Positions 18,315-40,717 of a stretch of 40,717 nucleotides of DNA are shown here, piece by piece. Where the stretch lies: the NCBI GenBank assembly GCA_902517245.1, contig CABYBK010000008.1, positions 1-40,717 of the forward strand, in the 5' to 3' direction. The notes beneath the pieces were generated by a model. It did not search any database, was not told the DNA's origin, and worked only from the letters and a program-made list of their open reading frames with translations. Origin of the DNA: an uncultured Bacteroidota bacterium (lineage in GTDB: Bacteria; Bacteroidota; Bacteroidia; Flavobacteriales; Flavobacteriaceae). How positions within the stretch are numbered: the first letter of the stretch is position 1; every line of letters starts with the position of its first letter. The translations under genes were made by a program, and so were the position numbers.

Positions 18315-19586
18315 TTAAATTAATTCATACGGTTTTCTGTAACGCTTACTTTTCCTTTGATTTGCTTCAAAATCGTTAATAAATTCTTCTTTTACAGGAT
18401 CCCAATTTAAGGGCCTTCTATACTCATAAGCTAAATTTGCAATATGACATAAAGTCGCTGTTCTATGGCCAACTTCGGCATCACAAATTGGCTTTGAGCC
18501 ACTTTTAGCAGAAGTTATCCAATCATTTTCATGACTTTTAGAAACATAGAGCTTAACATCTGCAGCTTTCAATTTAATATTCAATAATTCTTTTGGATTA
18601 GATTCGAAAAAGCCTCTACTAATATCAAGTGTTCCGTTTGATCCAAAAAAACGAACTCCATATCCACGGCCAAAATTTTTATGTTCAACTTCAATGCCAT
18701 TATCATAATACATCTTAAGCCCCCTGGATGCAGTAGGCTCAATGGGTGCCTCATATTTAACAGGTCCAGAGTTATCCATTCCTAATGCCCATTGAACTAT
18801 ATCAAACATGTGTGCTCCCCAATCAGAAAGTATTCCTCCTCCAAACTCTCTATACCACCTCCAGTTTGGAAACCAGTCCTTCTCAACAATAAGATCATGA
18901 TAAGAACGGGCAGGCGCTGGTCCCAACCACCTATCCCAATCTAAATAATCTGGAGTTTCTTGGAACGGAAGATTACATGCAGCTGAGGGATTACCAACTT
19001 CAACCCAAACTTTTTCAATTTTCCCAAGATAACCGTTCCGCACCAACTCGCATGCTCTTCTAAAATCTCTTCTTGAGCGCTGCATACTTCCGGTTTGTAA
19101 AATACGTTTGTATTTTCGTGCAGTTCTTTCCATGATCCTTCCTTCATTTATGCTATGGGATAATGGTTTTTCACAATAAACATGTTTTCCAGCTTTCATT
19201 GCATTAATAGAAGGAATGGCATGCCAATGGTCAGGTGTACTAACAACAACTCCGTCAATGTTTGAGTTTTCAATTAGTTTGTCAAAGTCCTCATATACTA
19301 AAGCAGCTCCCTTTATTTCATACTTCTTGTACTCATTGGCCATTAATTCACGAAATCTATTTAACCTTTTTTGATGAATATCACAACCAGCTATAACTCT
19401 AGATTCAGGAATTTTTGACATACGCTCAATAAGGCCACCGCTTTGAGCCCCTAATCCAATAACACCAATATTAAATCTATCGCTTGGTGGAGTAAAACCT
19501 TTACCCATTACATGCCTAGGAATAATTGTTATTCCTAAAAATGCTGAACTTGTTTTTTTTAAAAATTGTCTTCTATTATTAATCAT
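18315..19586 (-). CDS. Gfo/Idh/MocA family oxidoreductase with twin-arginine signal
   Basis: N-term NNRRQFLKKTSSAFLGITIIP; Rossmann GVIGLGAQSGG; VVSTPDHWHAIPSINAMKAGKHVYCEKPL. Confidence 0.93.
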   Translation of the reverse strand: MINNRRQFLKKTSSAFLGITIIPRHVMGKGFTPPSDRFNIGVIGLGAQSGGLIERMSKIPESRVIAGCDIHQKRLNRFRELMANEYKKYEIKGAALVYEDFDKLIENSNIDGVVVSTPDHWHAIPSINAMKAGKHVYCEKPLSHSINEGRIMERTARKYKRILQTGSMQRSRRDFRRACELVRNGYLGKIEKVWVEVGNPSAACNLPFQETPDYLDWDRWLGPAPARSYHDLIVEKDWFPNWRWYREFGGGILSDWGAHMFDIVQWALGMDNSGPVKYEAPIEPTASRGLKMYYDNGIEVEHKNFGRGYGVRFFGSNGTLDISRGFFESNPKELLNIKLKAADVKLYVSKSHENDWITSAKSGSKPICDAEVGHRTATLCHIANLAYEYRRPLNWDPVKEEFINDFEANQRKSKRYRKPYELI

Positions 19587-22921: not shown

Positions 22922-23962
22922 ATGTTAGTGTTTCAAAAACTCGTTAAAAGATTATTAGCATTAATAATGGTACTTTTTATGCTTATGATCACCGTTTTTT
23001 TTGGAGTTATTTATTATGATATATCAGAGCCCTCACAAAATGATATATTAGAACCCTTACCAAAGGAAATCATTGTTGAATGGGATGCAGATAAATTTGT
23101 ACTTAATAATTCTCTTGTTGATAAACAAGTCGTAGATGGTTATTTACTATTGAGTGCATCATCTGAGTATATGGGGCCGCTAAATGAAGACCCTAATCTT
23201 AGATTTAGTGGTAATAATCTCTCATGTACAAATTGTCATTTAAATGGTGGAACCATGTCAGGAGCTGCGTCTTGGATTGGTATTACAGGCCGTTTTCCAC
23301 AATTTGGTGGAAGAGCAAATAAAGAAGGTTCGCTTGTAGATAGAATAAATGGCTGTATGGAGAGAAGCATGAACGGTAAAGCATTTCCAGAAAATTCAAA
23401 ACAGATGAAAGCAATGATTTCATATATGAAATGGCTTGATGAAGGAATCCCAAAATTAAATACCAAAGACTTTAAAGGGTACCCAAAAATTGAAGCTCCT
23501 ACATTTGCTGTGGATTTGAATAAAGGAAAATCTATATATGATCTTGAATGTGTCGTTTGTCATGGAGATAACGGAGAAGGAATTCGCTATAAAGACAATA
23601 AAAAAGGGTATCAGTATCCTCCATTATGGGGTCCAGATACTTACAATGATGGTGCTGGAATGAATAGAGTGCTCACTGCTGCAGCATTTATAAAAAATAA
23701 TATGCCTTACCTACAGGCTACTTGGGAAAACCCAAAACTTTCAGATGAAGATTCATATCATGTTGCCGGGTATATCAATAGCTTCTATCGACCAAAAAAA
23801 GCAAATAAAGAAATGGACTACCCTGATAAAAAATTAAAACCTGTTTCCACGCCCTACGGACCATGGACTGATAATTTCTCTCCAGAGCAACATAAGTTTG
23901 GTCCATTTCCACCTATTATCGAATTTTACAAAAATGAATTTAATATCATTAAAACTAAATAA
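22922..23962 (+). CDS. Membrane-anchored diheme cytochrome c, TsdA-like (thiosulfate dehydrogenase family)
   Basis: Two CxxCH motifs (CTNCHLNGG and CVVCHGDNGEG), TsdA-like LVDRINGCMERSMNGKAFP with a Cys, FIKNNMP near C-terminus, N-terminal hydrophobic anchor. Confidence 0.85.
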   Translation: MLVFQKLVKRLLALIMVLFMLMITVFFGVIYYDISEPSQNDILEPLPKEIIVEWDADKFVLNNSLVDKQVVDGYLLLSASSEYMGPLNEDPNLRFSGNNLSCTNCHLNGGTMSGAASWIGITGRFPQFGGRANKEGSLVDRINGCMERSMNGKAFPENSKQMKAMISYMKWLDEGIPKLNTKDFKGYPKIEAPTFAVDLNKGKSIYDLECVVCHGDNGEGIRYKDNKKGYQYPPLWGPDTYNDGAGMNRVLTAAAFIKNNMPYLQATWENPKLSDEDSYHVAGYINSFYRPKKANKEMDYPDKKLKPVSTPYGPWTDNFSPEQHKFGPFPPIIEFYKNEFNIIKTK

Positions 23963-23983: not shown

Positions 23984-24928
23984 CTATTTAGGCTCTTGTA
24001 TCCTAATGTTTCGAAATTCAACTTTTCCGTGATCACCCTGGAGCATAATAGGTCCTGGTAATGCTTCTTTACTATCGATTGCACCTCCTGTGATCCCAGG
24101 AATAATTTGATCTATTATAATTGGTTTACCGTTTGCAGAAATACTAACTCTTCTCCCTATTAATGTAATATCAAATACTTGCCATTGACCCGCTGGATTG
24201 GCTGCCATTTGATTGGGAGTTAAAAAACCATATACACCACCAAAAAGAATAGATTCTGGATCATTACCATAACTGTCTTCTACCTGAACCTCATAGCGTC
24301 CTCTCAAATAGATTCCTGAATTACTCCCTTTAGGGTATCGCACTTCAACATGCAATTTAAAATCTTCATAATTATTATTAGATATTAGGTTTACACCCGA
24401 TTTTGGATTTTTCAATAGTCCATCTGAGGCTATCCATTGATTAATCATATTCTCGTCAGATGAGTGCCAACCATCTAAGGTTTCTCCATCAAATAAAGAC
24501 TTGATTTTTCCCCATCTTAATTCATTATCTCTTATCAGTTTTGGGGCAGGAGTACCAGTAAAACTGTGTGAACCACCCTCGCTACTAAGAATAGTTCCTT
24601 TTAAATTTCCATCTGACAAAATTCCCTGTAAATGCAAATCATTTTGGCCATCCCATTGAGGTGGAATACTAAAATCCACTATGCCATTATGAAAAAATAC
24701 CTCTGATATTGGTCTTGCACTTCCATTATGTGCTACAAAGAAGCCAACCAGGGCTTTTGTTCCAGATTGTTTAACTTGGAGCCATGATGGGAAGATTTTC
24801 CCATTCATTTCTACCTCTAAGTCCCAACTTCCAATTACCCCTTTGTTTGTTTGTGCTACTACACTAAAAGAAATTAGTGAGAATAAAATTGTAAGGAAAA
24901 AATTTCTGCATTGATTATAATAATTCAT
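23984..24928 (-). CDS. Secreted DUF1080 (3-keto-disaccharide hydrolase family) protein with extra N-terminal domain
   Basis: Signal peptide; SLFDGETLDGWHSSDENMINQWIASDGLLK... NSGIYLRGRYEVQVEDSYG ... PIMLQGDHGKVEFRNIRI. Confidence 0.88.
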   Translation of the reverse strand: MNYYNQCRNFFLTILFSLISFSVVAQTNKGVIGSWDLEVEMNGKIFPSWLQVKQSGTKALVGFFVAHNGSARPISEVFFHNGIVDFSIPPQWDGQNDLHLQGILSDGNLKGTILSSEGGSHSFTGTPAPKLIRDNELRWGKIKSLFDGETLDGWHSSDENMINQWIASDGLLKNPKSGVNLISNNNYEDFKLHVEVRYPKGSNSGIYLRGRYEVQVEDSYGNDPESILFGGVYGFLTPNQMAANPAGQWQVFDITLIGRRVSISANGKPIIIDQIIPGITGGAIDSKEALPGPIMLQGDHGKVEFRNIRIQEPK

Positions 24929-25682: not shown

Positions 25683-26579
25683 TTAATGATCTTTATAAGT
25701 GTTAATAAATGACTCAATATCATTCATAGAGATAGTTGGATTTGCCCCAAAACTATTTGCCACAAGTGCTCCCATAGCGCATGCATAATCTATAGTTTTT
25801 TGTAACGGTTCTTTTTCAATTAAGCCATTGATCAAGGTTGCTAAAAAAGAATCTCCAGCTCCTACAGAATCCTTTACTATGACCTTATAACCATTATTGT
25901 AAAACCAATCACCATGATGGTATAAAACAGCTCCACATTTTCCTTTAGTAACACAAATGATTTTGGTTTTAGTTCTTTCGGCAATAAACTCAATGTTTTT
26001 ATCAATTGAATTAAACGGTGATTCTAATCCATTAGCAATTATATCTAACTCTTCATCATTAAATTTGAGCATATCTGATTTATTCATCAAATCGATTAGT
26101 AATGATTGATTATAAAATGGAGGTCTTAAGTTAATATCAAAAATACTGAATTTAGATACTTTTAAAAAAGAATTAAGTGCTTCAAAAGATTTTGCTCTAG
26201 CTATGAGACTTCCGAAAACAAATGCAGAAGCATCACTTACCATTTTGACTGTTTTAGCCTCTTTTTCTATATAATCCCAAGCGGAATCATTGTCTATTTC
26301 ATATTTTGCTGATCCATCAGAATCTATATCCACAGTCACTTTTCCAGTGGGGTAAATAGGGTCCTCTTGTAAAAAAATAGTTGAAACTCCACGACTTTTA
26401 AGTTCTTTTAGTATTTCGTTACCTAAAAAATCTTTGCCAATCCTACTAATGAACTCAACATCAGCGCCAAGATCTTTTAAAGAGTTTGTCACATTAAAAG
26501 GTGCTCCACCTAATTTTTTCCCATCTTCAAAAATATCCCAAAGGATTTCTCCAAAACAAATTATTTTATTTGATTTCAT
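25683..26579 (-). CDS. PfkB-family carbohydrate kinase (fructokinase-like)
   Basis: CFGEILWDIFEDGKKLGGAPFNV; C-terminal DSVGAGDSFLATLINGL anion-hole signature. Confidence 0.92.
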   Translation of the reverse strand: MKSNKIICFGEILWDIFEDGKKLGGAPFNVTNSLKDLGADVEFISRIGKDFLGNEILKELKSRGVSTIFLQEDPIYPTGKVTVDIDSDGSAKYEIDNDSAWDYIEKEAKTVKMVSDASAFVFGSLIARAKSFEALNSFLKVSKFSIFDINLRPPFYNQSLLIDLMNKSDMLKFNDEELDIIANGLESPFNSIDKNIEFIAERTKTKIICVTKGKCGAVLYHHGDWFYNNGYKVIVKDSVGAGDSFLATLINGLIEKEPLQKTIDYACAMGALVANSFGANPTISMNDIESFINTYKDH

Positions 26580-26653: not shown

Positions 26654-27835
26654 TTAAATATTCATTGTTTTAGTTATTCCTTGTGCTAAACCTCGAATTT
26701 CAGATAGTCCACGAAGTCTTCCTATTGCTGAGTATCCAGGTTTGGTTTTTTTATTTAAATCATCTAACATTTGATGTCCATGGTCAGGACGCATCGGGAT
26801 TTCCCAATCTGAACGCCCTTGTTTCAGTCTCTTTTTTTCTTCAACTATTATATCGTAAACTACAGAAAACATATCAACATCTCCCTCTAAGTGGTTTGCT
26901 TCAAAAAAGCTACCTTCACCTTGCCATTGAATACTTCTGAGATGAAGAAAATGAATACGGTTTGCAAATTTTTGAAAAATGACAGACAAATCATTTTCTT
27001 TTCTAACACCCAAAGATCCAGTACAAAATGTGAGCCCATTCGAAAGAGATGGTACTCTATGGAAAATAGTCTTCAAATCTTGAAGATTTTTTACAACTCT
27101 TGGAATACCAAACAGATTATAGGGCGGATCATCTGGATGGACACACATCCTGACATTCATACTCTCAGCGATTGGAATGATTTCCTCCAAAAAAAGAAGA
27201 AAATGCTCTTGTAAATCTACCTCACCCAGAAATTCATATTTTTCTAATTGTGATCTAAATTGCTCCAATGTATAGCGCTCTGAAGCACCTGGCATGCCAG
27301 ATATAATATTTTTTGATAGAGTCTCAATTTCATTTGAAGAAAGTTTTTTAAAGTAGCTTTTTGCCTTTTGGATTTGTGATGAATTGTATTCCCTTTCAGC
27401 ATCTTTCCTTTTTAAAATAAATAAATCAAAAGCTGCTAGAGCAGAACTGTTGAAGTATAAAGCTAATGAACCATCGTCCATAGGGTAAAATAAATGAGTC
27501 CTTGTCCAATCTAGAACAGGCATAAAATTATAACATACAGTTTTTATTCCACATGAAGCAAGATTATCAAGAGTTGCTTTGAAATTATCTATATAAGTTT
27601 GAAAAGAACCAGTGCGTTGTTTAATATCTTCATGGACTGGAACAGATTCTACAACTTCCCAATCTAAACCTGCATTTCTAATAATTTGTTGGTGCTCTTT
27701 AATATCATCTTTATTCCAAACTAAACCATTAGGAATTTGATGTAATGCAGAGACTACACTTTTCGCACCTATTTGAGAAATATTATTTAAACTAACAGGA
27801 TCGTCGGGTCCATACCATCTAAAAGATTCTTTCAT
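26654..27835 (-). CDS. uxuA: D-mannonate dehydratase
   Basis: FRWYGPDDPVSLNNISQIGAKSVVSALHQIPNGLVW; MCVHPDDPP; MRPDHGHQMLDDLNKKTKPGYSAIGRLRGLSEIRGL. Confidence 0.95.
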   Translation of the reverse strand: MKESFRWYGPDDPVSLNNISQIGAKSVVSALHQIPNGLVWNKDDIKEHQQIIRNAGLDWEVVESVPVHEDIKQRTGSFQTYIDNFKATLDNLASCGIKTVCYNFMPVLDWTRTHLFYPMDDGSLALYFNSSALAAFDLFILKRKDAEREYNSSQIQKAKSYFKKLSSNEIETLSKNIISGMPGASERYTLEQFRSQLEKYEFLGEVDLQEHFLLFLEEIIPIAESMNVRMCVHPDDPPYNLFGIPRVVKNLQDLKTIFHRVPSLSNGLTFCTGSLGVRKENDLSVIFQKFANRIHFLHLRSIQWQGEGSFFEANHLEGDVDMFSVVYDIIVEEKKRLKQGRSDWEIPMRPDHGHQMLDDLNKKTKPGYSAIGRLRGLSEIRGLAQGITKTMNI

Positions 27836-28050: not shown

Positions 28051-28866
28051 ATGAAAAATAAATTATTGTCTAAATATAAATATCCAGATCCCGACGGACA
28101 AACTCAATTGATTACCCTAAAAAAGGCTAATTGGAAGTACGTATCTTTTGAAACAAAAGAACTTGAAAAAAATCAAACCACCCTTATAAAAAGTGACTCC
28201 AATGAAATTTGTATTGTTGTAATTTCTGGCAAATGTAATGTTCGTAATCAAAAAATAAACCTGACTCAAATTGGAGATAGAATGTCACCCTTCGAACGAA
28301 AAAAACCTTGGGCAGTATATATAAACAAAAATGATTTTATAGAACTTAAAGCCGTGTCATCATTAGAAATAGCGATTTGTAAAGCTCCCGGTGGGGGGAA
28401 TTATGAATCAAGGATTATTTCCCCTAGTCATATGGATTCAGAAAAAAGAGGAAAAGGACAAAACAAAAGATTAGTTCATAATATATTACCAGAAACAGAA
28501 CCAGCAAATAGTCTTTTAGTTGTTGAATGTTATACTGATCAGGGTAATACCAGCTCATATCCTTCCCATAAACACGACACTGATGATTTTCCAAACGAGA
28601 CATATTTGGAAGAAACATATTACCACCGTTTTAATCCCAAACAAGGTTTTGCATTTCAGAGAGTTTATACCGAAGATGGAAGCCTTGACGAGTCTATGGC
28701 GGTTTATGATAAAGATGTTGTTATGGTTCCAAAAGGCTATCACCCAGTTGCCACGATCGCAGGTTATGATAATTATTACTTAAATGTAATGGCTGGACCT
28801 GTTCGAAAATGGTGTTTCACTTGGGAAGATGATCACGATTGGATTAATGGAGAAACTTACAATTAA
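28051..28866 (+). CDS. iolB: 5-deoxy-glucuronate isomerase
   Basis: 271 aa; VVECYTDQGNTSSYPSHKHD...EETYYHRFNPKQGFAFQRVYT...VPKGYHPVATIAGYDNYYLNVMAGP. Confidence 0.95.
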   Translation: MKNKLLSKYKYPDPDGQTQLITLKKANWKYVSFETKELEKNQTTLIKSDSNEICIVVISGKCNVRNQKINLTQIGDRMSPFERKKPWAVYINKNDFIELKAVSSLEIAICKAPGGGNYESRIISPSHMDSEKRGKGQNKRLVHNILPETEPANSLLVVECYTDQGNTSSYPSHKHDTDDFPNETYLEETYYHRFNPKQGFAFQRVYTEDGSLDESMAVYDKDVVMVPKGYHPVATIAGYDNYYLNVMAGPVRKWCFTWEDDHDWINGETYN

Positions 28867-28880
28867 GATTTTCTTAAGTA

Positions 28881-29888
28881 TTACCTATAAAATTTTGGTG
28901 TCTCTACAATTGAAAATGGTTCAATAGCTTTTGTCTTTTGTGCTTTAATACATATATCACAAGCAATTGCGGCAACATATCCATCCCATGAAGATGGACC
29001 TTGAATTTTATTACCCACAATACCATCAATAAATTCTTGTAATTCTATGTCATAAGCTTTTATAAATCTTTTTTTCCAATCAGTATCTATACTTGTAAAT
29101 TTCTTTTCGTCTTTTCGAATCACTAAACTTTCAGGTTCAGGAAGCTTAGCAATTCCATCCGAGCCAACTAATTCGCATTGAATGTCATAACCATATTGAC
29201 AATTAACAAACATTTCAACATCAATTCGAATTCCACTCCTTGTTTCCAACAATAAAATTTGAGGATCATGTAAGTTCCCGTGGCTTCGTTTTGTTTTTTT
29301 TGCAAAAATCATTTGAGCTGTTACATAGTCTTCTTTTAATAACCACCTAATTACATCTATCTCATGAACTAATGAATCTGATACAGCCATCTCAGTTACA
29401 TAAGATTCTGGAACTGTAGGATTCCTGTGTGCACAATGAATCATCAGAACATCTCCAATTTCAGAATTTTCAATGACTTTTTTTAATTTTTGATATCCAG
29501 AGTCGTATCGACGCATGAATCCTACTTGGACTAATCTTTTTCCGAAATTCATTTCAGCATCGACAATATTCTTACATGCACTTGCAGAAGTAGCCAAAGG
29601 TTTTTCGCAAAAGACATATTTTCCTGCTGCAATTGATGCCAAAACAAATTCTTCATGAGTTGAACCAATTGAACATACTAATATAGCATTAACTTCAGGG
29701 CTTCTTATAAGGTCATAAGGATCCTCAAATACTTCTGCTGTTCCTAATTCAGCAACAAGTCTTTTGGCGCTTTCTATATTAATATCATTAACAGCAGTCA
29801 CGATTCCCCCATTTAAACTTTTATTAATTCGTGTAGCATGATCTGAACCAATCATTCCTGCTCCTATTATTCCAAATTTAATATTCAT
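28881..29888 (-). CDS. iolG: Inositol 2-dehydrogenase (Gfo/Idh/MocA, cytosolic)
   Basis: KFGIIGAGMIGSDHATRI; FCEKPLATSA; VQVGFMRRYDSGYQKLK; HEIDVIRWLL; no Tat signal; inside iol cluster. Confidence 0.9.
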   Translation of the reverse strand: MNIKFGIIGAGMIGSDHATRINKSLNGGIVTAVNDINIESAKRLVAELGTAEVFEDPYDLIRSPEVNAILVCSIGSTHEEFVLASIAAGKYVFCEKPLATSASACKNIVDAEMNFGKRLVQVGFMRRYDSGYQKLKKVIENSEIGDVLMIHCAHRNPTVPESYVTEMAVSDSLVHEIDVIRWLLKEDYVTAQMIFAKKTKRSHGNLHDPQILLLETRSGIRIDVEMFVNCQYGYDIQCELVGSDGIAKLPEPESLVIRKDEKKFTSIDTDWKKRFIKAYDIELQEFIDGIVGNKIQGPSSWDGYVAAIACDICIKAQKTKAIEPFSIVETPKFYR

Positions 29889-29957
29889 TTAAATTTATAT
29901 TTATATTTATCTATTCGTGTGATGATGATTTGTTAATTCAATAACTAAGTCTTCAAT

Positions 29958-31460
29958 CTAATCCATTGTTGGCATTATAAATTCATTACCGCTTCTTATA
30001 CCTTTCGGCCATTTTGTTGTTATAGTCTTAAGTTGAGTATAAAAACGTATACCATCAGTTCCATGCATATGATTTATGCCAAAAAGGGAAGACTTCCAAC
30101 CTCCAAAACTGTGAAAAGCCATTGGCACAGGAATAGGGATATTTATTCCTACCATACCAGCTTGAATATTGTGAGCAAAAGTACGAGCAGAATCCCCATC
30201 CCTTGTGAAAATTGATGTTCCATTACCAAATTCATGATTATTAATCAATCTTACAGCCTCCTCAAAATCAGCAACTCTTACCATTGATAATACCGGACCA
30301 AAAATTTCTTCTTTGTAAATCTTCATTTCTGAGGTAACATTATCAAAAAATGTACCTCCCAAAAAGAATCCATTTTCATATCCCTCTTTATCCATTTTGA
30401 ATTCACGACCATCAACAACCAATTCAGCCCCTTGATTAACGCCTGAATGAATATATTTCTCAACACGTTCCAGATGTTGTTGATTTATTAGGGGACCCAT
30501 TTCTGCATTTGGGTCTGTCCCGGGTCCAATCTTTAAGCTTGATAAGCTTGAAGTTATTGCTTTCTTTAATTTTTCAGCTACATCATCTCCAACAGCAATA
30601 ACCACCGATATAGCCATACAGCGTTCTCCAGCAGAACCATATGCTGCTCCCATCAACCCATTAACCGCAGCTTCCATATCAGCATCAGGCATAACAAGCA
30701 TATGATTTTTCGCACCACCAAGTGCCTGTACACGTTTACCGTGGGCGGAGCCTATTTCATAAATATACTTGGCAATTGGAGTTGAGCCTACAAAACTGAC
30801 AGCTTTTATATCTGGGTGTTTTAGTAATCCATCTACGGCAGATTTATCACCTTGAACAACATTAAATACACCATCTGGGAATCCTGCTTCTGTCATAAGC
30901 TTCGCATAATATATAGCAATGGAAGGATCTCTTTCAGAGGGTTTTAAAATAAACGTATTACCACATGCTAATGCTATTGGAAACATCCACATAGGAACCA
31001 TAGCTGGAAAGTTAAAAGGAGTAATTCCTGCCACCACACCTAGAGGTTGACGCAGAGAGTGACTATCAATGTCTGTACCCACGTTTTCGCTCATTTCACC
31101 CTTCAAGAGATGGGGAGCTCCACATGCAAATTCAACTACTTCTAAACCACGAATAACTTCCCCTAAGGCATCAGAGTGCACCTTACCATGTTCGCGACTT
31201 ATCAATGCTGCCATTTCATCGGTATTTTGTTCTAGTAAATCTCGAAATCTATTCATGATTCGAGAACGTTTCAAAGGTGTGATTTTAGACCAACTCTCAA
31301 ATGCACTTTTGGCCTTAGCTACAGCAAAATCAACGTCTTCTGTTGAAGAGAGCCCAACTTTGGCGATGATCTTTCCAGAAGCTGGGTTAAAAACATCAGA
31401 TGTGCGTCCACTTGATATTTTAACAGTTTTTCCATCTATATAATTATTAATTATGTGCAT
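29958..31460 (-). CDS. iolA: Methylmalonate-/malonate-semialdehyde dehydrogenase (CoA-acylating)
   Basis: ALDH with catalytic GSAGERCMAIS, ITPFNFPAMVPMWMFPIALACGNTFILKPSE, ALGGAKNHMLVMPDAD. Confidence 0.95.
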   Translation of the reverse strand: MHIINNYIDGKTVKISSGRTSDVFNPASGKIIAKVGLSSTEDVDFAVAKAKSAFESWSKITPLKRSRIMNRFRDLLEQNTDEMAALISREHGKVHSDALGEVIRGLEVVEFACGAPHLLKGEMSENVGTDIDSHSLRQPLGVVAGITPFNFPAMVPMWMFPIALACGNTFILKPSERDPSIAIYYAKLMTEAGFPDGVFNVVQGDKSAVDGLLKHPDIKAVSFVGSTPIAKYIYEIGSAHGKRVQALGGAKNHMLVMPDADMEAAVNGLMGAAYGSAGERCMAISVVIAVGDDVAEKLKKAITSSLSSLKIGPGTDPNAEMGPLINQQHLERVEKYIHSGVNQGAELVVDGREFKMDKEGYENGFFLGGTFFDNVTSEMKIYKEEIFGPVLSMVRVADFEEAVRLINNHEFGNGTSIFTRDGDSARTFAHNIQAGMVGINIPIPVPMAFHSFGGWKSSLFGINHMHGTDGIRFYTQLKTITTKWPKGIRSGNEFIMPTMD

Positions 31461-31462
31461 GC

Positions 31463-32365
31463 TTAAATTTGATTTATGTTAAGATTTGTTTCTTTTGCTA
31501 ACTTCAATATATTTTCATACCCCATTCGAGCGTAAATTAAGGGTTCAGCAATGGATGGATCTTGTTCAGCCTCTATTACTAGCCAACCTTCATAATCATT
31601 ATCATTTAAGAGCTTAAATATACTTGAATAATCAATAATTCCATCTCCAGGTACTGTGAAGACTCCTTTTAGTACTGCATTTAAAAAACTTAAATTTGAA
31701 TTTTTTACATAATCCAATACATCTTTTCTAATATCCTTGCAATGAACATGATGAATTCTATGTTTCCAATTAACTAAAATTCTAGATAAATCTGCTCCAG
31801 CAAAATAGGCGTGACCTGTGTCAAAAAGTAGTCCTACTTCATCAGAGGTATTTTGCATAAGTTTATTGATTTCATTTTCATTTTGTATGATAGTACCCAT
31901 ATGATGATGATATACAAGTTGAAGCCCCTGCTCTTTTAAAAACATTGAAAATTCATTGAGCTTCTTTCCGTATTCTATCCATCGATTTTTTTGAAAAGGC
32001 ACTCTGTTTCTCAAAGGTGTACTAATACTGCCATGAATACAATATGAAAGTTCACAAAAAATAAAAACTTTACAGCCCATAGTTCTAAGAAGCTCTATAT
32101 GTCTCTTCGCATTTTCTATTTCTTCATCTACTGATCTATTTAAAAGGAAACCTGAATACCATCCAGACACCAATTTTAAATTAAACTTATCAAGGATTGG
32201 TTTTAGCTTACTTGCTTCACGAGGAAATTTATTTCCAAGTTCAAAACCTGCATATCCAGATTCAGAACCTTCTTTTAAACATACCTCTAGAGGTGTTTTC
32301 CCACCAAGAGAAGGCATATCATCGTTTGTCCATGTCAGTGGATTAATACCAATTTCAATTGCCAT
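31463..32365 (-). CDS. iolE: Inosose dehydratase (myo-inosose-2 dehydratase)
   Basis: IGINPLTWTNDDMPSLGGKTPLEVCLKEGSESGYAGFELGNKFP; xylose-isomerase-like TIM barrel; HHHMGT; DTGHAYFAG. Confidence 0.94.
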   Translation of the reverse strand: MAIEIGINPLTWTNDDMPSLGGKTPLEVCLKEGSESGYAGFELGNKFPREASKLKPILDKFNLKLVSGWYSGFLLNRSVDEEIENAKRHIELLRTMGCKVFIFCELSYCIHGSISTPLRNRVPFQKNRWIEYGKKLNEFSMFLKEQGLQLVYHHHMGTIIQNENEINKLMQNTSDEVGLLFDTGHAYFAGADLSRILVNWKHRIHHVHCKDIRKDVLDYVKNSNLSFLNAVLKGVFTVPGDGIIDYSSIFKLLNDNDYEGWLVIEAEQDPSIAEPLIYARMGYENILKLAKETNLNINQI

Positions 32366-32368
32366 TAT

Positions 32369-34228
32369 TTATAAATTTTTGATCTGCTTTTCTTTTTGAA
32401 GCTCATAATTTTTTCTTGCCTTATTAACTCCCTTTTCGTTAGAAACTTCAGCTACAGCTACATCCCACCAATTACCACCTTCTTCTACAGTTTTATTTGG
32501 ATCTGTTAAAATATTTATCACATAAGTCGTTTCTGAATTTCTAGCCCTTTCTAAAGCTTTCTGAAGTGATGCTATACCTTCAACTTCTTCTGATTTAGCA
32601 CCCATTGAACGAGCATGTGCTGCAAAATCAACTCGCATAACTTCATTTTGTGTAGATCTACAATCCCGAATCAGATTATTAAATCCTGAATTACCACAAT
32701 TTTCTTGAAGTCTATGAATACAACCATAGCCTCCGTTATCTACAACTACTATAATTAATTTCAATCCTAGCATTACTGATGAAAAAATCTCCGAATTCAT
32801 CATTAAATAAGAACCATCTCCAACCATAACATAAACTTGTGAATCAGGTAATGCCATCTTAACTCCTAACCCTCCAGCAATTTCGTAGCCCATACATGAG
32901 TAACCATATTCAACATGATAACCTCTATCAAAACTCGTCTTCCATAACTTTTGCAAATCTCCTGGAAGTCCACCTGCAGCACAAACAACTACATCTCTCT
33001 CACGAGAAGACCTATTTACTGCACCAACAACCTCACCATCGGAGGGTAATAATGTTCCTTTATCTCTTGAAGCCTCATCAACAGCAATTAACCATTCTTT
33101 CCTAAGTATGGATACCCTTTGTTGCCAATCATTTGAAGTTTTTATCGCAGTACAATATTTCATTAGCGTGTTAAGAGTTAGTTTGGCATCGCCAACTAAT
33201 GATAGTGCTCTATGTTTAATAGAGTCATAAGCACATACGTTAATTGACAATAATGTAGCCTCTGAATTAAATAGTGTCCGAGAGCCGGTTATAAAATCTC
33301 CAAGTCTAGTACCAATAGCGATAATTAAATCAGCTTCTTTTAATAATTCATTACAAGCAGACCCCCCTGTAACTCCAACTGAGCCAACATTCATAGGATT
33401 CTCCCAAGGTATAGCACCCTTACCTGCTTGAGTTTCACCGATTGGAATCAATAAATTATTTGAAAAATCCTCAAGCTCCTTAGTTGCCAACGAATAATGA
33501 ATACCTCCACCGGCAATTATTACTGGTTTTTTAGCTTTGAGTATCATTTGAACAGCACTCTTGAGTTGATTTTCGTCAGCATGTTGTCTTCTTAAAAAAT
33601 GAATTTTTTCTTCGAAGAATCGTTCTGGATAGTTCCAAGACATTGTTTGAACATCTTGAGGGAATGCAATTGTTACAGTTCCAGTATCGACAGGGTCTGT
33701 CAATACCCTAATTGCTTGAGGTAAAGACGTTAATAATTGTTCTGGACGCATAATTCTATCAAAAAATCGACTTACAGGTTTAAAACAGTCATTTGTTGTT
33801 ATGGTCTGATCAGTATTGTCCTCTAATTGCTGAAGTACGGGATCTGGTATTCGTGTAGCAAAAGTATCACCTGGTAAAAGCAATAATGGTATTCTATTTA
33901 TATGGGCTAGTGCAGCAGCTGTGACAATATTAGTTGAGCCTGGACCAGCAGAAGAAGTACAGGCCATAATTTGCTGTCTATTTAAAGTTTTTGAATATGC
34001 AATGGCAGCATGTGCCATAGATTGTTCATTTTGACCTCTATAGGTTGGAAGTGCTTTTTGATGTTGAAATAACGCCTCACCAATCCCAGCAACATTTCCA
34101 TGACCAAATATTGCCCAAACTCCAGGAAATAAGGGTTTTATCTCTTCATTTATTTTTACTTTTTGGGCGATCATAAAGCGAATTAACGCTTGTGCTGCTG
34201 TTAGTTTAATCACTTTCTTACTACTCAT
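32369..34228 (-). CDS. iolD: 3D-(3,5/4)-trihydroxycyclohexane-1,2-dione acylhydrolase
   Basis: ThDP enzyme; LTAAQALIRFMIAQ...FPGVWAIFGHGNVAGIGEAL; GDGSYLMMNSEIFSSVMLGLKLIIVVVDNGGYGCIHRLQ. Confidence 0.96.
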   Translation of the reverse strand: MSSKKVIKLTAAQALIRFMIAQKVKINEEIKPLFPGVWAIFGHGNVAGIGEALFQHQKALPTYRGQNEQSMAHAAIAYSKTLNRQQIMACTSSAGPGSTNIVTAAALAHINRIPLLLLPGDTFATRIPDPVLQQLEDNTDQTITTNDCFKPVSRFFDRIMRPEQLLTSLPQAIRVLTDPVDTGTVTIAFPQDVQTMSWNYPERFFEEKIHFLRRQHADENQLKSAVQMILKAKKPVIIAGGGIHYSLATKELEDFSNNLLIPIGETQAGKGAIPWENPMNVGSVGVTGGSACNELLKEADLIIAIGTRLGDFITGSRTLFNSEATLLSINVCAYDSIKHRALSLVGDAKLTLNTLMKYCTAIKTSNDWQQRVSILRKEWLIAVDEASRDKGTLLPSDGEVVGAVNRSSRERDVVVCAAGGLPGDLQKLWKTSFDRGYHVEYGYSCMGYEIAGGLGVKMALPDSQVYVMVGDGSYLMMNSEIFSSVMLGLKLIIVVVDNGGYGCIHRLQENCGNSGFNNLIRDCRSTQNEVMRVDFAAHARSMGAKSEEVEGIASLQKALERARNSETTYVINILTDPNKTVEEGGNWWDVAVAEVSNEKGVNKARKNYELQKEKQIKNL

Positions 34229-34250
34229 TTCTAATTTATTATAATAATTT

Positions 34251-36155
34251 TTATCGTTTATTCCACATTTGAATAATCTCTCTGTAGTTTTCTTTTACTT
34301 CTTTAATTAAAGTACGATCATCTATATCCTTATCTAACCATTTATTAGAAGGCTTTGCGAAAATGGTTCTGCCTACTGCAAACCCTTTGACATATTTTGA
34401 AGTTGACGCTTTTTTAAATCCAATATTAAGCTTTTGTTTATCTGCACCTAAACCTAAAATTACAACTCCTCTACAATATGGATCATTTTGTTCAATAAGA
34501 CTATCAAGTAAATTCCAATTATTTTTCGAAAACGGTGGTAGTTTCCACCAATCAGGCTTTATACCAATGTTGTAAATTCTTTGAATAGAACGTAAGTACT
34601 TATTTGTTTTTAAATTAGGTGCATTTGGGATTATTAATTCTAATAAAATTTCATGTCCAGTTTTCAAGCAAGCTTCATATACTTCTTTTATAAGATCTTC
34701 TTGTTCTATTCTAAGCATATTAGTATCATCAGGATCATAAAATACTAAACATTTAACAACTTGTTCAATTGGCCAGCTCATCAACTGAGTTCCTATATTG
34801 CCATGCTCTAATCGTAATGGCTTTGAGCCAGGCAACTCTATAGGTCTAGCAATCCAAAATCCTTGGCCAGTAACATTATTTAACTCATTTTGTCCAAAAG
34901 CTTGATCTATAAATACTCCTGTCTTTCCTTTTAGAGAATCTTCTTCAGTTACTTCAATAAATGCTTTTAATATTAGCTGTTTTAGATCTGCCACTCTATT
35001 CAATGAACTATTTGATTCAATTGCCATTTCTATAAATTGTGATCTATGGTCAAAGGCAAGCAAAAACAATTCTTTCCAATTTTTTGACCTAGTAGTCACT
35101 CTGTGTAAATGATTTAAATGATCATCTATATCGGGCCTAGGAATATTTTTTTCTTCAGATAAATAATAATCTAACTCCTCACGAGTTGGCATAGCTGGAG
35201 CACAACCATGTCTTGAAACTACTAAAGCACCGCAAGCGTTAGCATATTTACAAGATTCTTCTAAACTTTCACCACTTAAATATCCCCTCAAAAACCCAGA
35301 CATAAATGCATCTCCAGCACCCAATACATTCAAAACTTCTACTTTAACTCCTGTAATTGTTAATCCTTCATCTAAATGATTCGGTATTTCATCTTTGAAA
35401 ACTGAACAACCTAGTGCTCCTCTTTTACATACCAAAATAGCATTTGAAAATTTTCTAACATTTTTCAAAGCTTTTAATGTATCAGTATTTCCTCCGGCAA
35501 TATGAAACTCTTCCTCAGTACCTACAATAAGATCAAAGTGATTAAGAACCTCTTGTAATTCTGAGGTTACATGTTTAGATGCTATAAATCTAGTTTCACC
35601 ATCACCTAGGTCAGTAAGACCCCACAAAACAGGTCTAAAATCAATATCCAATATTCGTTTTAAACCATGTTTGGTGGCAAAAGAAAGGGCGGTTAATACA
35701 GCTTCTCTTGTGTCTTTGTGTGAAAGATGTGTGCCTGTAATAGCTAGTGCTTTTGAAGATGATATATAATCTTCATTAATGTCATCTTTAATAAGCGCCA
35801 TATCGGCACAATTGTCTCTATAAAAAATTAGTGGAAAAGTCTCTCTGTCTTTTATACCTAAAATTACAAGTGCTGTTAATCGAGTTGGATCAGAAATAAT
35901 ATTGCTAGTGTCTACACCTGCTCTATCTAATTCTTCTTTTAGAAAACGACCCATGTGTTCGTCACCCACTCTTGCTAACATAGATGTTTTTAATCCCTGC
36001 CTAGCTGCTCCGTAGGCAACATTTGCTGAAGATCCTCCAAGGTATTTAGAAAAAGTACTTGTGTCCTCGAGCCTTGAACCAATTTGATTACCATAGAAGT
36101 CAACTGCTAATCTTCCTAAACATATTAGATCAAAATTTTTAACCTTTTTTGACAT
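34251..36155 (-). CDS. iolC: 5-dehydro-2-deoxygluconokinase fused to C-terminal DUF2090 aldolase-like domain
   Basis: N-terminal PfkB domain (DLICLGRLAVDFYGNQIGSRLED..., NVLGAGDAFMSGFLRG); C-terminal ~300 aa WKELFLLAFDHRSQFIEMA... VVILGLGADKQKLNIGF...FAVGRTIFAKP. Confidence 0.94.
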   Translation of the reverse strand: MSKKVKNFDLICLGRLAVDFYGNQIGSRLEDTSTFSKYLGGSSANVAYGAARQGLKTSMLARVGDEHMGRFLKEELDRAGVDTSNIISDPTRLTALVILGIKDRETFPLIFYRDNCADMALIKDDINEDYISSSKALAITGTHLSHKDTREAVLTALSFATKHGLKRILDIDFRPVLWGLTDLGDGETRFIASKHVTSELQEVLNHFDLIVGTEEEFHIAGGNTDTLKALKNVRKFSNAILVCKRGALGCSVFKDEIPNHLDEGLTITGVKVEVLNVLGAGDAFMSGFLRGYLSGESLEESCKYANACGALVVSRHGCAPAMPTREELDYYLSEEKNIPRPDIDDHLNHLHRVTTRSKNWKELFLLAFDHRSQFIEMAIESNSSLNRVADLKQLILKAFIEVTEEDSLKGKTGVFIDQAFGQNELNNVTGQGFWIARPIELPGSKPLRLEHGNIGTQLMSWPIEQVVKCLVFYDPDDTNMLRIEQEDLIKEVYEACLKTGHEILLELIIPNAPNLKTNKYLRSIQRIYNIGIKPDWWKLPPFSKNNWNLLDSLIEQNDPYCRGVVILGLGADKQKLNIGFKKASTSKYVKGFAVGRTIFAKPSNKWLDKDIDDRTLIKEVKENYREIIQMWNKR

Positions 36156-36199
36156 AAGTTACTTTTAAAGTATTGGGTTTAATTAATTACATATTATTC

Positions 36200-36236
36200 T
36201 TGCATAACCCTATAAATCTAATATTGATTTGCATAA
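36200..36236. repeat. Direct repeat TTGCATAA x2 (36200-36207 and 36229-36236)
   Basis: Two identical 8-mers 29 bp apart in the iolC leader. Confidence 0.5.
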
Positions 36237-36278
36237 AGCTTGAACAAAAAAATAATGCTCAAACTATTTTATATACAA

Positions 36279-36286
36279 CAAATATA
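36279..36286 (-). promoter_or_regulatory. Putative -7 element (TATATTTG) of the iolC-D-E-A-G operon
   Basis: CAAATATA on + strand; exact TAnnTTTG on minus in the intergenic region between SDR stop and iolC start. Confidence 0.4.
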
Positions 36287-36301
36287 TTTTTATATACATA
36301 T

Positions 36302-37105
36302 TTAAACTCCACTGAATGCACTAAAACCCCCGTCAACTGGTAAAACAACACCGGTTATAAATTTAGAACTATCACTGCATAAAAAATGTATTGCACCATT
36401 TAATTCCTCGGGCTTACCAAAACGTTTCATAGGGGTGTTTTGAATAATTTTTTTTCCTCGATCAGTCAAGCTTCCGTCCTTATTTAATAATAGCTTTTTA
36501 TTTTGCTTCCCAATAAAAAACCCTGGGGCTATTGCGTTAACTCGAATTCCTTCTCCAAATTTTAAAGCCATCTCAACAGCCATCCATCGTGTGAAATTTT
36601 CCATCGCAGCTTTAGCTGCAGAATAACCGACGACCCTGGTCATAACTCTATCTACAGTCATTGAAGAATAATTAACGATACTTCCTTTACCTTGATTTGC
36701 TATTATCTCACCAAACACTATTGAGGGTAAAATAGTTCCTTTTAGATTCATTTCAACAACCTCATCAAAATCAGTTTCTGAAAGATCAAAAATATTTTTA
36801 TCATCAGGAATAACAGCACCAGGAAGATTTCCACCTACGGCATTAATTAAAGAATCAATTTGACCCAGAGTTTGAATTATGGAGGTTCGAACTTTCTCTA
36901 ATTCATGACGGGCCAAAACATTTACAACATGATATTCTACATAAGTTAAATGAACTAATTTTTTCTTTAATTCATCTAGTAATACTTCATTCCTTCCCAA
37001 AATCACCAACTTTGCATTGGCTTTTGCTAAACTTAATGCCAGTTCGCTCCCTAATACGCCAGTAGCACCAGTTAAAACTATTACTTTATCTTTTAATTCA
37101 AACAT
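36302..37105 (-). CDS. SDR-family oxidoreductase, D-mannonate oxidoreductase (fructuronate reductase)-like
   Basis: GATGVLGSELALSLAKANAKLVILGR; NAVGGNLPGA; YSAAKAAMENFTRWMAVEMA; INDEED SDR-type with FxIG-Q; neighbour uxuA supports uxuB-like role. Confidence 0.8.
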   Translation of the reverse strand: MFELKDKVIVLTGATGVLGSELALSLAKANAKLVILGRNEVLLDELKKKLVHLTYVEYHVVNVLARHELEKVRTSIIQTLGQIDSLINAVGGNLPGAVIPDDKNIFDLSETDFDEVVEMNLKGTILPSIVFGEIIANQGKGSIVNYSSMTVDRVMTRVVGYSAAKAAMENFTRWMAVEMALKFGEGIRVNAIAPGFFIGKQNKKLLLNKDGSLTDRGKKIIQNTPMKRFGKPEELNGAIHFLCSDSSKFITGVVLPVDGGFSAFSGV

Positions 37106-37106
37106 A

Positions 37107-38300
37107 TTATAAATTATATTTTGGATCCCAAGAAACTACTTGTTCTGTATCCATTGCACGAATCCCCATATCTACAGCAAGTGAAACATCTGCACCACTT
37201 TTTAAATTTGACATTGGAGTTGAGTCATTAATTATTGCATATCTAAAATCTTCAAGAGCTTGATAAGTTGGCTCTTTATGATCAAATTTAATAGGATTAC
37301 CCTTGCCCTCTATCCAACTTGAAGTTGCTCCTGAAACACCATCAACATTCTTTATAACTTTATTGTATTTACCTTCAGGATATATCCAAGCATCTTTATA
37401 ACCTATGATGATAGAAGCCTTGTCACCCATTACTTTAATTTGATAGTCATCTTTTCCGTTTGATGTAAGACATGTAAAGCTCGCCTTTACACCACTAGGA
37501 TAGGAATAAGTTAGATGAATATTATCATAAGTTTCACGTCCATCTTTCCAATAATCTATACCACCAAAACCTACAACTTTTTTTGGAGTAGATTTAAGAA
37601 GCCAATTGGAAAAATCAATTTGATGTGAACTAAGTTCAGCTGTAAGTCCATAAGAATATTCACGGTACATTCTCCAATTAACTTGACGTTCAAATTTAGG
37701 ATCCTGTACTTGTCTTCTCCAATTTCCGTTACGATTCCATTGGGCTTGAATAGCGATAATTTGTCCAATTTCTCCACTTTGCACCAATTCAACTATATGT
37801 GAATATAATCTCGAGCTATGATATTGATGACCAGTCTGGAAGATTTTATTATGATCCTTTTTTACTTTTTTAACTAAATTCATAGTACTTATATCGCCTT
37901 TTACCATGGTTTTTTCACAATAAATATGCAAAGATGCATCTACAGCGTCACTAGCAATAGATGCATGAGTATTTAGTGGCGTACTAATAATTACAGCATC
38001 TAAATTTTTATTAGATAATAGCTCTTTATAATTTGAATATTTTATGGCTTTTGGAGCTATTTTTGCAGCCTGATCTAATCGAAACTGAAGATTATCACAA
38101 ATTGCAATCAATCTCATACCATCAATTTTGCTAATAAGTTTTATTAGTCCTTGACCACGATCTCCAGTTCCTATAATACCAATATTCAGTTGATTTAAAG
38201 GTGAACTCTTAAATATGGAAAATAGATCTGATTTTGGTGTTATTAGCGGTGCGCTAAAAGCAACAGTACTTTTTTTAATGAAGGATCTTCGCGTTGCCAT
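37107..38300 (-). CDS. Gfo/Idh/MocA family oxidoreductase with twin-arginine signal
   Basis: MATRRSFIKKSTVAFSAPLITP; IGIIGTGDRGQGLIKLI; IYCEKTMVKG; TAELSSHQIDFSNWLL. Confidence 0.92.
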   Translation of the reverse strand: MATRRSFIKKSTVAFSAPLITPKSDLFSIFKSSPLNQLNIGIIGTGDRGQGLIKLISKIDGMRLIAICDNLQFRLDQAAKIAPKAIKYSNYKELLSNKNLDAVIISTPLNTHASIASDAVDASLHIYCEKTMVKGDISTMNLVKKVKKDHNKIFQTGHQYHSSRLYSHIVELVQSGEIGQIIAIQAQWNRNGNWRRQVQDPKFERQVNWRMYREYSYGLTAELSSHQIDFSNWLLKSTPKKVVGFGGIDYWKDGRETYDNIHLTYSYPSGVKASFTCLTSNGKDDYQIKVMGDKASIIIGYKDAWIYPEGKYNKVIKNVDGVSGATSSWIEGKGNPIKFDHKEPTYQALEDFRYAIINDSTPMSNLKSGADVSLAVDMGIRAMDTEQVVSWDPKYNL

Positions 38301-38374
38301 ATCAGAATTAAATTAAAATACACAAATTTTGGCATCTGCAATTTAACAAAAACTTTTGCTATATTAGGTTAACT

Positions 38375-38380
38375 TATAAT
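38375..38380 (+). promoter_or_regulatory. Putative TATAAT -10-like element upstream of double-DUF1080 gene
   Basis: TTTTG ... N16 ... TATAAT ending 20 bp before the proposed TTG start codon; resembles a canonical rather than TAnnTTTG promoter. Confidence 0.3.
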
Positions 38381-38399
38381 GTAACAAAATCCCTACAAA

Positions 38400-39788
38400 T
38401 TGTATTTTTTTAAAAAAAACATACTACTCTTAATTATATTTTTAGTTTTTGCCTATATCAAGGTTAAAGGGCAAAAAACGAAATGGAATAATTTACTTGA
38501 TAACAATGATCTCAGTGAGTTTATTCAATTAAATGGCAAAGCCGATTTCACTTTAAAAGATGGTGTTCTTATTGGAACATCTAAATTAAATACCCCAAAT
38601 AGCTTCTTGGCTACAAAAAGTAAATATTCTGATTTTATTCTTGAATTTGATGTCTTGATTGATAATGATTTAAATTCAGGAGTACAATTTAGAAGTCAAA
38701 GTATTAAAAACTACTTGAATGGGAGGGTTCACGGATACCAATGTGAGATAGAAACAAGCCCTAGAAGATGGGCGGGTGGTATATACGATGAAGCACGAAG
38801 AGGTTGGCTTTACCCACTTTCAAGAAATAAAATAGGGCAAAAGGCTTTTATAAATGGTAATTGGAATAAATATAGAATTGAAGCAATTGGCAACTCAATA
38901 AGAACTTTCGTAAATGGTGTTGAAACAGCAAATTTATTTGATGATATGACAAAAGAAGGATTTATTGCATTTCAAGTACATGGAATTTCTAAACCTGAAC
39001 AAGAAGGAAAACAAGTACGATGGAAAAACATCCGTATTTTAATTTCTGACCTTGAAAAAAATCAAATGCTTGCTTCAAATAAAGCTCCTCATATTAGTTA
39101 TATTGACGGAAACTTAACTCATGAAGAAAAGCGCCTCGGTTTTAGAATGCTTTGGGATGGAAAAACAACAAAAGGTTGGCGTGGTGCAAAAAAAAGTATG
39201 TTTCCTGAAAAAGGATGGATAATAAAAGATGGTATACTAACAGTAGAAGCTTCAGATGGAAAAGAATCTAGAAATGGTGGTGATATTATAACCATAGAAT
39301 CATTTAGAAACTTTGAATTAAGTGTTGATTTTCTTTTGAGCCCAGGTGCAAACAGTGGAATTAAATATTTTGTAAAACCCGAGTTAAATAAAGGCAAGGG
39401 ATCTTCTATAGGGTTAGAATTTCAAATCCTCGATGATGAAAAACATCCTGATTATAATTTAGGAAAAAATGGGAATCGATCAGTGGGCTCACTTTATGAT
39501 CTAATTAGGGCAGAAAATAGAACTACCGGAGCCCGTGGAAAAAACTTTAAGGGAGTTGGGCAATGGAATAACGCGCGAATCATAGTTAATGGTGGAAAGG
39601 TAGAGCATTGGTTAAATCATGTTAAAGTTGTTGAATTTGATCGCTTTAGTCAAACTTTTGAAGCACTAGTAGAAAAAAGTAAATATGAAATTTGGGAACA
39701 GTTTGGTAGATGGCCAGAGGGAGTAATACTTTTGCAAGACCATGGTGATAAGGTTTCATTTAAAAATATAAAAATTAGAGAATTTTAA
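38400..39788 (+). CDS. Secreted protein with two tandem DUF1080 (3-keto-disaccharide hydrolase family) domains; TTG start
   Basis: Signal peptide YFFKKNILLLIIFLVFAYIKVKGQ; repeat 1 LLDNNDLSEFIQ...LNSGVQFRSQ; repeat 2 MLWDGKTTKGWRG...ANSGIKYFVKPE...VILLQDHGDKVSFKNIKIREF. Confidence 0.9.
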   Translation: MYFFKKNILLLIIFLVFAYIKVKGQKTKWNNLLDNNDLSEFIQLNGKADFTLKDGVLIGTSKLNTPNSFLATKSKYSDFILEFDVLIDNDLNSGVQFRSQSIKNYLNGRVHGYQCEIETSPRRWAGGIYDEARRGWLYPLSRNKIGQKAFINGNWNKYRIEAIGNSIRTFVNGVETANLFDDMTKEGFIAFQVHGISKPEQEGKQVRWKNIRILISDLEKNQMLASNKAPHISYIDGNLTHEEKRLGFRMLWDGKTTKGWRGAKKSMFPEKGWIIKDGILTVEASDGKESRNGGDIITIESFRNFELSVDFLLSPGANSGIKYFVKPELNKGKGSSIGLEFQILDDEKHPDYNLGKNGNRSVGSLYDLIRAENRTTGARGKNFKGVGQWNNARIIVNGGKVEHWLNHVKVVEFDRFSQTFEALVEKSKYEIWEQFGRWPEGVILLQDHGDKVSFKNIKIREF

Positions 39789-39790
39789 AA

Positions 39791-40717
39791 TGGGTAATAC
39801 AAGGAGAGATTTTATTAAAAAAACAGCTTTAAGCGCGACCGCAGTGGCTTCAGTGGGCCCTAATATTATGATTGGTAAAAACATTTTAGGTGCGAATGAT
39901 CGAATAAATTGTGCAATTGCAGGTGTGCGAAGTAGAGGGAAAGCTCACGCAGCCTCTATAAACCTTCAAGACAATGCTAAAATTCTCTTCAGCTGTGATG
40001 TAGATGAAAAGATAATAGAAGAGCACAATAAATGGAGTAAAAAAAATATAGGCTATATAGCTAAAATAGAAAAGGATTACAGGAAACTTGTTGAAAACAA
40101 AGATATTGACGTAATTTTTATTGCAACTCCTGAACATTGGCATACTCCAATGACTATAATGGCTCTTCAAAATGGGAAACATGTTTATGTCGAGAAACCT
40201 TGTAGTCATAACCCCCATGAAAACGAGTTACTTGTTGCTGCTCAAAATAAATATGGATTAAAAGTGCAAATGGGTAACCAACAGCGTTCCGCACTAAGCA
40301 GTATTAATGCCATTAATGATATAAGAAATGGAACTATTGGAGAGGTATATAAAGGCGAAGCTTATTATTCGAATAATAGAGGATCAATAGGAATAGGTAA
40401 AATTACTCCAATTCCTCAAACTTTAGATTGGGATTTATGGCAAGGTCCAGCACCTAGAACTCAATATAAAGACAACTTTCATCCTTATAATTGGCATTGG
40501 TTCAGAAGTTGGGGAACTGGAGAAGTTCACAACAATGGTACTCACGAGATTGATATATGCCGATGGGCTCTTGATGTTGATTTACCAGAAAGTGTAACTT
40601 CCTTTGGAGGCAAATACGCCTATCAAGACGATTGGGAATTTGTAGACAATCAGCAAGTTACATTCAAATATCCAGGAGGTAAATTTATTACATGGACAGG
40701 CCATAGCAGAGGTCTGA
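39791..40717 (+). CDS. Gfo/Idh/MocA family oxidoreductase with twin-arginine signal, truncated at window end
   Basis: Not in the ORF track (no stop in window). ATG at 39791: MGNTRRDFIKKTALSATAVASVGPNIMIGKNILGANDRINCAIAGVRSRGKAHAAS...IATPEHWHTPMTIMALQNGKHVYVEKPCSHN...; open to 40717. Confidence 0.93.

Follow-up and report, generated by a model that had tools for sequence, protein, structure and literature searches.

A double-DUF1080 protein paired with Tat-signal Gfo/Idh/MocA oxidoreductases is linked to hexuronate genes in Bacteroidota and suggests an oxidative route for glucuronides

Gene content and layout of the locus

We analyzed contig CABYBK010000008.1 (C8) of an uncultured marine Flavobacteriaceae bacterium (assembly GCA_902517245.1; 1.48 Mb, 62% complete). 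The entire contig, 40717 bases, is called the window here. Open reading frame calling placed four genes at its right end (36302-40717): a short-chain dehydrogenase/reductase (SDR), a Gfo/Idh/MocA oxidoreductase (Gfo1), a protein with two tandem DUF1080 domains (dDUF1080), and a second Gfo/Idh/MocA oxidoreductase (Gfo2) (Table 1). These calls and Pfam searches bear out a first-pass annotation of the sequence, in which two enzymes with twin-arginine translocation (Tat)-type signals flanked a double-DUF1080 protein. The annotation also put the SDR 1 nt downstream of Gfo1, and the spacing is exactly 1 nt; for Gfo2, which it ran from 39791 to the end of the plus strand, the strand was correct but the start is an ATG at 39790. 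Gfo2 is truncated by the contig end and remains open at 309 aa (orthologues are ~441 aa long), so we let the orthologue from locus L013, the closest relative examined, stand in for the complete protein.

Table 1. Features of the dDUF1080 locus and its neighborhood in the window
Feature	Position	Strand	Description
SDR	36302..37105	-	267 aa; SDR-type D-mannonate oxidoreductase (fructuronate reductase, UxuB/YjmF-like), predicted cytoplasmic; NCBIfam NF006132; beside uxuA in relatives
Gfo1	37107..38300	-	397 aa; Tat-signal Gfo/Idh/MocA oxidoreductase; start MATRRSFIKK; Pfam, RRxF, invariant columns
Divergent intergenic region Gfo1/dDUF1080	38301..38399	.	Aligned across 22 such regions; one subclade shares a conserved block
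dDUF1080	38400..39788	+	462 aa, exported, TTG start; two tandem PF06439 (3-keto-disaccharide hydrolase) domains of different subtypes; Pfam, 4jqt_A
Gfo2 (partial)	39790..40716	+	Tat-signal Gfo/Idh/MocA oxidoreductase, glucoside-3-dehydrogenase-like; start MGNTRRDFIKK; Pfam, 8tdf/8tdh, L013 model
uxuA	26654..27835	-	Mannonate dehydratase; TIGR00695 531 bits, cut-off 199.55; iol insertion between uxuA and SDR here
PfkB kinase	25683..26579	-	Candidate 2-keto-3-deoxygluconate kinase; PF00294; conserved beside locus
iolB, iolG, iolA, iolE, iolD, iolC-DUF2090	28051..36155	.	myo-Inositol catabolic genes, inserted between uxuA and SDR

Protein families and export signals

Profile searches, which the first-pass annotation had recommended, assigned dDUF1080 to PF06439 over two stretches, at 273.8 bits against a Pfam gathering cut-off of 26.8 and with each domain alone above the cut-off. 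The protein begins with a hydrophobic Sec-type signal peptide that has no lipobox Cys. PDB entry 4jqt ("putative glycosyl hydrolase") has the identical two-domain architecture and matches it over its full length (4jqt_A, E 3.7e-156); thus, the double-DUF1080 architecture is not new. The C-terminal domain is similar to many solved single-domain proteins, and the sole strong match of the N-terminal domain is 4jqt. Because both domains retain their blocks of conserved residues (82 sequences), neither looks decayed. DUF1080 proteins have been tied to 3-ketotrehalose hydrolysis (BT2157) and to lactose use (CCNA_01705), cleavage of 3-keto-glycosides being established for some PF06439 members only (PMC9007349). 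By analogy with these members, dDUF1080 probably cleaves 3-keto-glycosides; a division of elimination and hydration between its two domains is conjecture.

The same searches found PF01408 in both oxidoreductases, together with PF22725/PF02894 in Gfo1 and PF22725/PF19051 in Gfo2, so that each combines the Rossmann and C-terminal Gfo domains of the Gfo/Idh/MocA family. Every distinct homologue with an N-terminus carries RRxF, 27 of 27 for Gfo1 and 27 of 27 for Gfo2, as do 43/43 homologues of GfoX, a second Gfo type found next to dDUF1080; TatC is encoded in the host genome on contig C25. From the conserved twin-arginine signal and the presence of TatC, we predict that Gfo1 and Gfo2 are exported by the Tat pathway. 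The retention of RRxF, TatC, and a gene order conserved in the genus also argue that the arrangement is more than chance. Invariant residues comprise K130 (in EKT) and H226 (in SHQID) across ten Gfo1 orthologues and K136 and H252 across fifteen Gfo2 homologues; by analogy, these Lys/His residues would be catalytic.

In sequence, Gfo2 comes closest among solved proteins to the Alistipes glucoside 3-dehydrogenase AL3 (8tdf/8tdh), which is its best PDB match and aligns an active-site-type His, and to DgpA. We ran a fold search with the model of the L013 Gfo2 orthologue (predicted local distance difference test, pLDDT, 78). Among the 50 fold matches listed, AL3 had the highest query TM-score (0.69) and DgpA1 the best E-value, although AL3 and Gfo2 share ~23% identity in the fold alignment. 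The P2B11 enzyme (8tdi), a Gfo/Idh protein named glucuronide-3-dehydrogenase for oxidation of glucuronides, matches both proteins weakly (1.5e-10 for Gfo1 and 3.6e-5 for Gfo2).

The SDR reached 336.1 bits with the NCBIfam model for SDR-type D-mannonate oxidoreductases (cut-off 281) and travels with uxuA. The first-pass annotation had it reduce a 3-keto product; we rejected this role, since family and uxuA partnership together indicate that the SDR acts in the hexuronate pathway and not on a 3-keto sugar.

Linkage to hexuronate genes, and other neighbors

To define the conserved neighborhood, we compared dDUF1080 loci within the genus and beyond it. Same-genus loci share the unit uxuA-SDR-Gfo1 and, across the divergent intergenic region, dDUF1080-Gfo2 (or GfoX), with UxaC (glucuronate isomerase) and the tripartite ATP-independent periplasmic (TRAP) transporter genes DctP/DctQ/DctM downstream of Gfo2 and, in many, the myo-inositol oxygenase gene MIOX upstream of uxuA. 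UxaC lies within 12 kb of dDUF1080 in 21 of the 24 genus genomes that have both; in the other three, the two are on different contigs. Among the matches listed for the same genomes, none of 87 single-domain DUF1080 loci has UxaC within this distance, and MIOX is found within 5 kb of dDUF1080 in 11/21 genus genomes versus 0/84 single-domain loci. Of the 56 named loci with ample flanking sequence, 48 have a Gfo gene within 10 kb of dDUF1080, 30 have UxaC, and 36 have any uronate gene.

A class-wide draw of 197 genomes gave a strong dDUF1080 match in 16 besides the window, and 15 of these loci carry a Gfo2- or GfoX-type gene (at least 40% identity) beside dDUF1080. In distant families, the uronate genes recur in differing orders: UxaC-DctMQP-LacI next to dDUF1080-Gfo2-Gfo1-SDR-uxuA in L134 and dDUF1080-Gfo2-UxaC-SDR-uxuA in L139, both from the draw, and dDUF1080-Gfo2-SDR-uxuA-UxaC in L036. 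Also in the draw, L138 has UxaC ~9 kb from dDUF1080, and L143 has an SDR. No MIOX match was found in the stretches read of the uronate-linked loci L036, L089, L134, and L139. Thus, the tie to the uxu genes that the first-pass annotation suspected is strongly conserved in relatives, and its coupling of exported Gfo/Idh enzymes to a DUF1080 protein is supported both by a pairing kept across families and by the nearness of Gfo2 to AL3 and DgpA.

The same annotation named the adjacent iol genes as possible recipients of the products. NCBIfam equivalog cut-offs were reached for IolB, IolE, and IolD, the IolC-aldolase model for IolC, and the methylmalonate-semialdehyde dehydrogenase subfamily for IolA, with IolG just under its cut-off (503 of 540). 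Among the dDUF1080 loci examined, the window alone has uxuA and SDR split by iol genes, and iolB/iolA/iolE/iolD/iolCJ were not beside dDUF1080 in any other. We therefore excluded the iol genes from the conserved module and regard them as an insertion in this genome. The iol clusters of genomes G004 and G007 are divergent, and in G004, G006, and G007 no SDR, uxuA, or dDUF1080 was detected in the sequence stretches surrounding the iol genes. A true iolD occurs in four genus genomes (three score above the cut-off, and the fourth is cut short where its contig ends), and no MIOX was detected in these four (Fisher p ~0.01; genomes incomplete), suggesting, no more strongly than that, that the iol and MIOX routes for inositol replace each other in the genus. 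The PfkB kinase reached no NCBIfam equivalog cut-off.

The Gfo1/dDUF1080 intergenic region contains a block, here about GCAATTTAACAAAAACTTTTGCTATATTAGG, which is conserved in one subclade and may be functional; a promoter/terminator scan of 36100-38500 gave sites not above shuffled sequence. In loci L027-L042 and L081, a CGTTAACGTTAACG palindrome lies 5' of dDUF1080 and is a candidate LacI-like operator; in several of the loci, a LacI regulator gene follows downstream. Elsewhere in the window, a third Tat-signal Gfo/Idh protein (NRRQFLKK; 18315-19586; 191 bits to BT_2158_fam) adjoins a Na+/sulfate-type symporter, and a second DUF1080 protein, with a single domain, is encoded at 23984-24928; these two are possibly another oxidative glycoside module. 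The 3' end of a gene for a predicted c-type cytochrome protein (22922-23962; PF00034, SoxA/TsdA-like) faces the single-domain DUF1080 gene.

A candidate oxidative pathway and its alternatives

Oxidative (non-Koshland) glycoside cleavage is known chiefly from gut Bacteroidota and from glucosides. The locus resembles the Bacteroides thetaiotaomicron BT2156-BT2159 operon, which we take to combine an exported Gfo/Idh enzyme (the dehydrogenase BT2158), a DUF1080 protein (the 3-ketotrehalose hydrolase BT2157), and a second Gfo/Idh gene. It differs from the operon in its two-domain DUF1080 protein, in its linkage to uronate genes, and in the scores of its oxidoreductases, which fall below both family cut-offs. 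BT_2158_fam (glycoside 3-dehydrogenase, NF058561; equivalog cut-off 750 bits) gave 101.5 bits for Gfo1, 165.8 for the partial Gfo2, and 164.7 for the full L013 Gfo2; BT_2159_fam (disaccharide 3-dehydrogenase, NF058563; cut-off 650 bits) gave 37.6 for Gfo1 and 26.9 for Gfo2. The glycoside 3-dehydrogenase BT2158 is periplasmic (PMC11300592), and a review covers the role of BT2156-2159 with glucosinolates (PMC12385236).

The likeness of Gfo2 to AL3 and DgpA, the DUF1080 and BT2158 precedents, and the matches of the TRAP binding protein lead us to favor an exported oxidise-cleave-reduce cycle that delivers hexuronate. We infer the roles of Gfo1 and Gfo2, the order of steps, and the substrate as follows. 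A Tat-exported Gfo/Idh enzyme with bound NAD(P)+, probably Gfo2, would oxidise the C3 hydroxyl of the sugar at a non-reducing end, a glucuronosyl residue being the likeliest. dDUF1080 would then use elimination and hydration to break the glycosidic bond thus made labile, its two domains perhaps dividing the steps or the anomers. Still in the periplasm, the reduced cofactor, possibly through Gfo1, would regenerate the parent hexuronate from the 3-keto sugar, rendering the cycle redox-neutral. The hexuronate would be imported by the TRAP transporter, whose gene in relatives corresponds to a position beyond the contig end here, and UxaC (in relatives), SDR, UxuA, and the PfkB kinase would process it via fructuronate, mannonate, and 2-keto-3-deoxygluconate. 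The best PDB matches of the L013 DctP are 4n8y, 4x8r, 4ovr, 4n91, and 4mhf, which we take to be uronate-bound (hexuronate-binding) structures; re-reduction before import fits these better than the first-pass order, in which a keto sugar was imported and then reduced. Of that earlier model, the exported Gfo/Idh enzymes acting with a DUF1080 protein are supported, and the SDR as reductase and reduction after import are not. By a modest margin, we favor glucuronides as the material cleaved: an exported oxidative glycosidase pathway, dependent on NAD(P), would free glucuronate from them and feed it into glucuronate catabolism.

Several observations weigh against this pathway. All eleven Arenibacter loci are among the 20 of 56 named loci without a uronate gene; dDUF1080 is paired there with another Gfo, and uronates are therefore not obligatory for dDUF1080. 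Gfo1 and Gfo2 score far under the BT_2158 cut-off, and both substrate and carbon position may differ. The AlphaFold model of Gfo1 was unusable (pLDDT 49). L013 has TRAP genes but no UxaC in its cluster. Finally, neither UxaC nor the TRAP binding protein was found in the 62% complete host genome, an absence that is uninformative because contig C8 breaks off within Gfo2, immediately ahead of their place in relatives. As a separate observation, GfoX is followed in Arenibacter-type loci (e.g., L070:12709-14389) by DUF6807 and by another single DUF1080 protein.

The Arenibacter loci also speak for the alternative that the exported cycle is correct but acts on a neutral glycoside (glucoside, disaccharide, or glycosyl-inositol) or a broad range, the uronate genes being neighbors that handle free glucuronate derived from MIOX or imported. 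The BT2156-2159 and AL3 enzymes use glucosides (PMC11300592), and MIOX by itself would account for UxaC-SDR-UxuA in many loci. Against this, the uronate linkage recurs in several families despite differing gene orders, the single-domain loci listed are without it, and the four linked loci noted above gave no MIOX match; we consider this alternative unlikely, although well worth keeping in view. It is improbable that the exported enzymes instead interconvert or epimerise hexuronates or inositols and supply glucuronate to the uxu pathway with no glycoside cleavage: Gfo1 is weakly similar to inositol dehydrogenases (3cea) and inositol genes lie near (MIOX in relatives, iol here), but the conserved double-DUF1080 protein is left unexplained and Gfo2 is nearest to glycoside 3-dehydrogenases. 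Least probable, with very little chance of being right, is that Gfo1 and/or Gfo2 are GH109-type NAD-dependent glycosidases, each complete in itself, with a single active site for oxidation, elimination, addition, and reduction, and that dDUF1080 either serves in binding or is unrelated, since the GH109 proteins 6t2b and 2ixa are among the PDB matches but weak next to 8tdf for Gfo2, dDUF1080 keeps beside Gfo across families with both domains strongly conserved, and DUF1080 relatives are tied to 3-keto-glycoside cleavage (PMC9007349).

A bolder form of the glucuronide pathway, which we regard as a distinctly doubtful extension, would have dDUF1080, as a single exported protein, perform both elimination and hydration, with the module serving as a dedicated oxidative glucuronide route, possibly for glucuronosyl-inositol head groups, replacing conventional glucuronidases in marine Bacteroidota; such head groups would explain the recurring inositol genes. 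Our literature search found nothing on glucuronide 3-dehydrogenase or, for Bacteroidetes, on MIOX together with glucuronate isomerase. Chemistry of this kind is known. To it our analysis adds that a double-DUF1080/Tat-Gfo module is coupled, in a conserved manner, to hexuronate catabolism and uptake; the new part is that this coupling suggests glucuronides as the likely fuel. The conserved hexuronate link would supply a substrate for an abundant, so far unassigned family of exported proteins and, if the pathway is true, would point to an overlooked route of glucuronide turnover in the sea.

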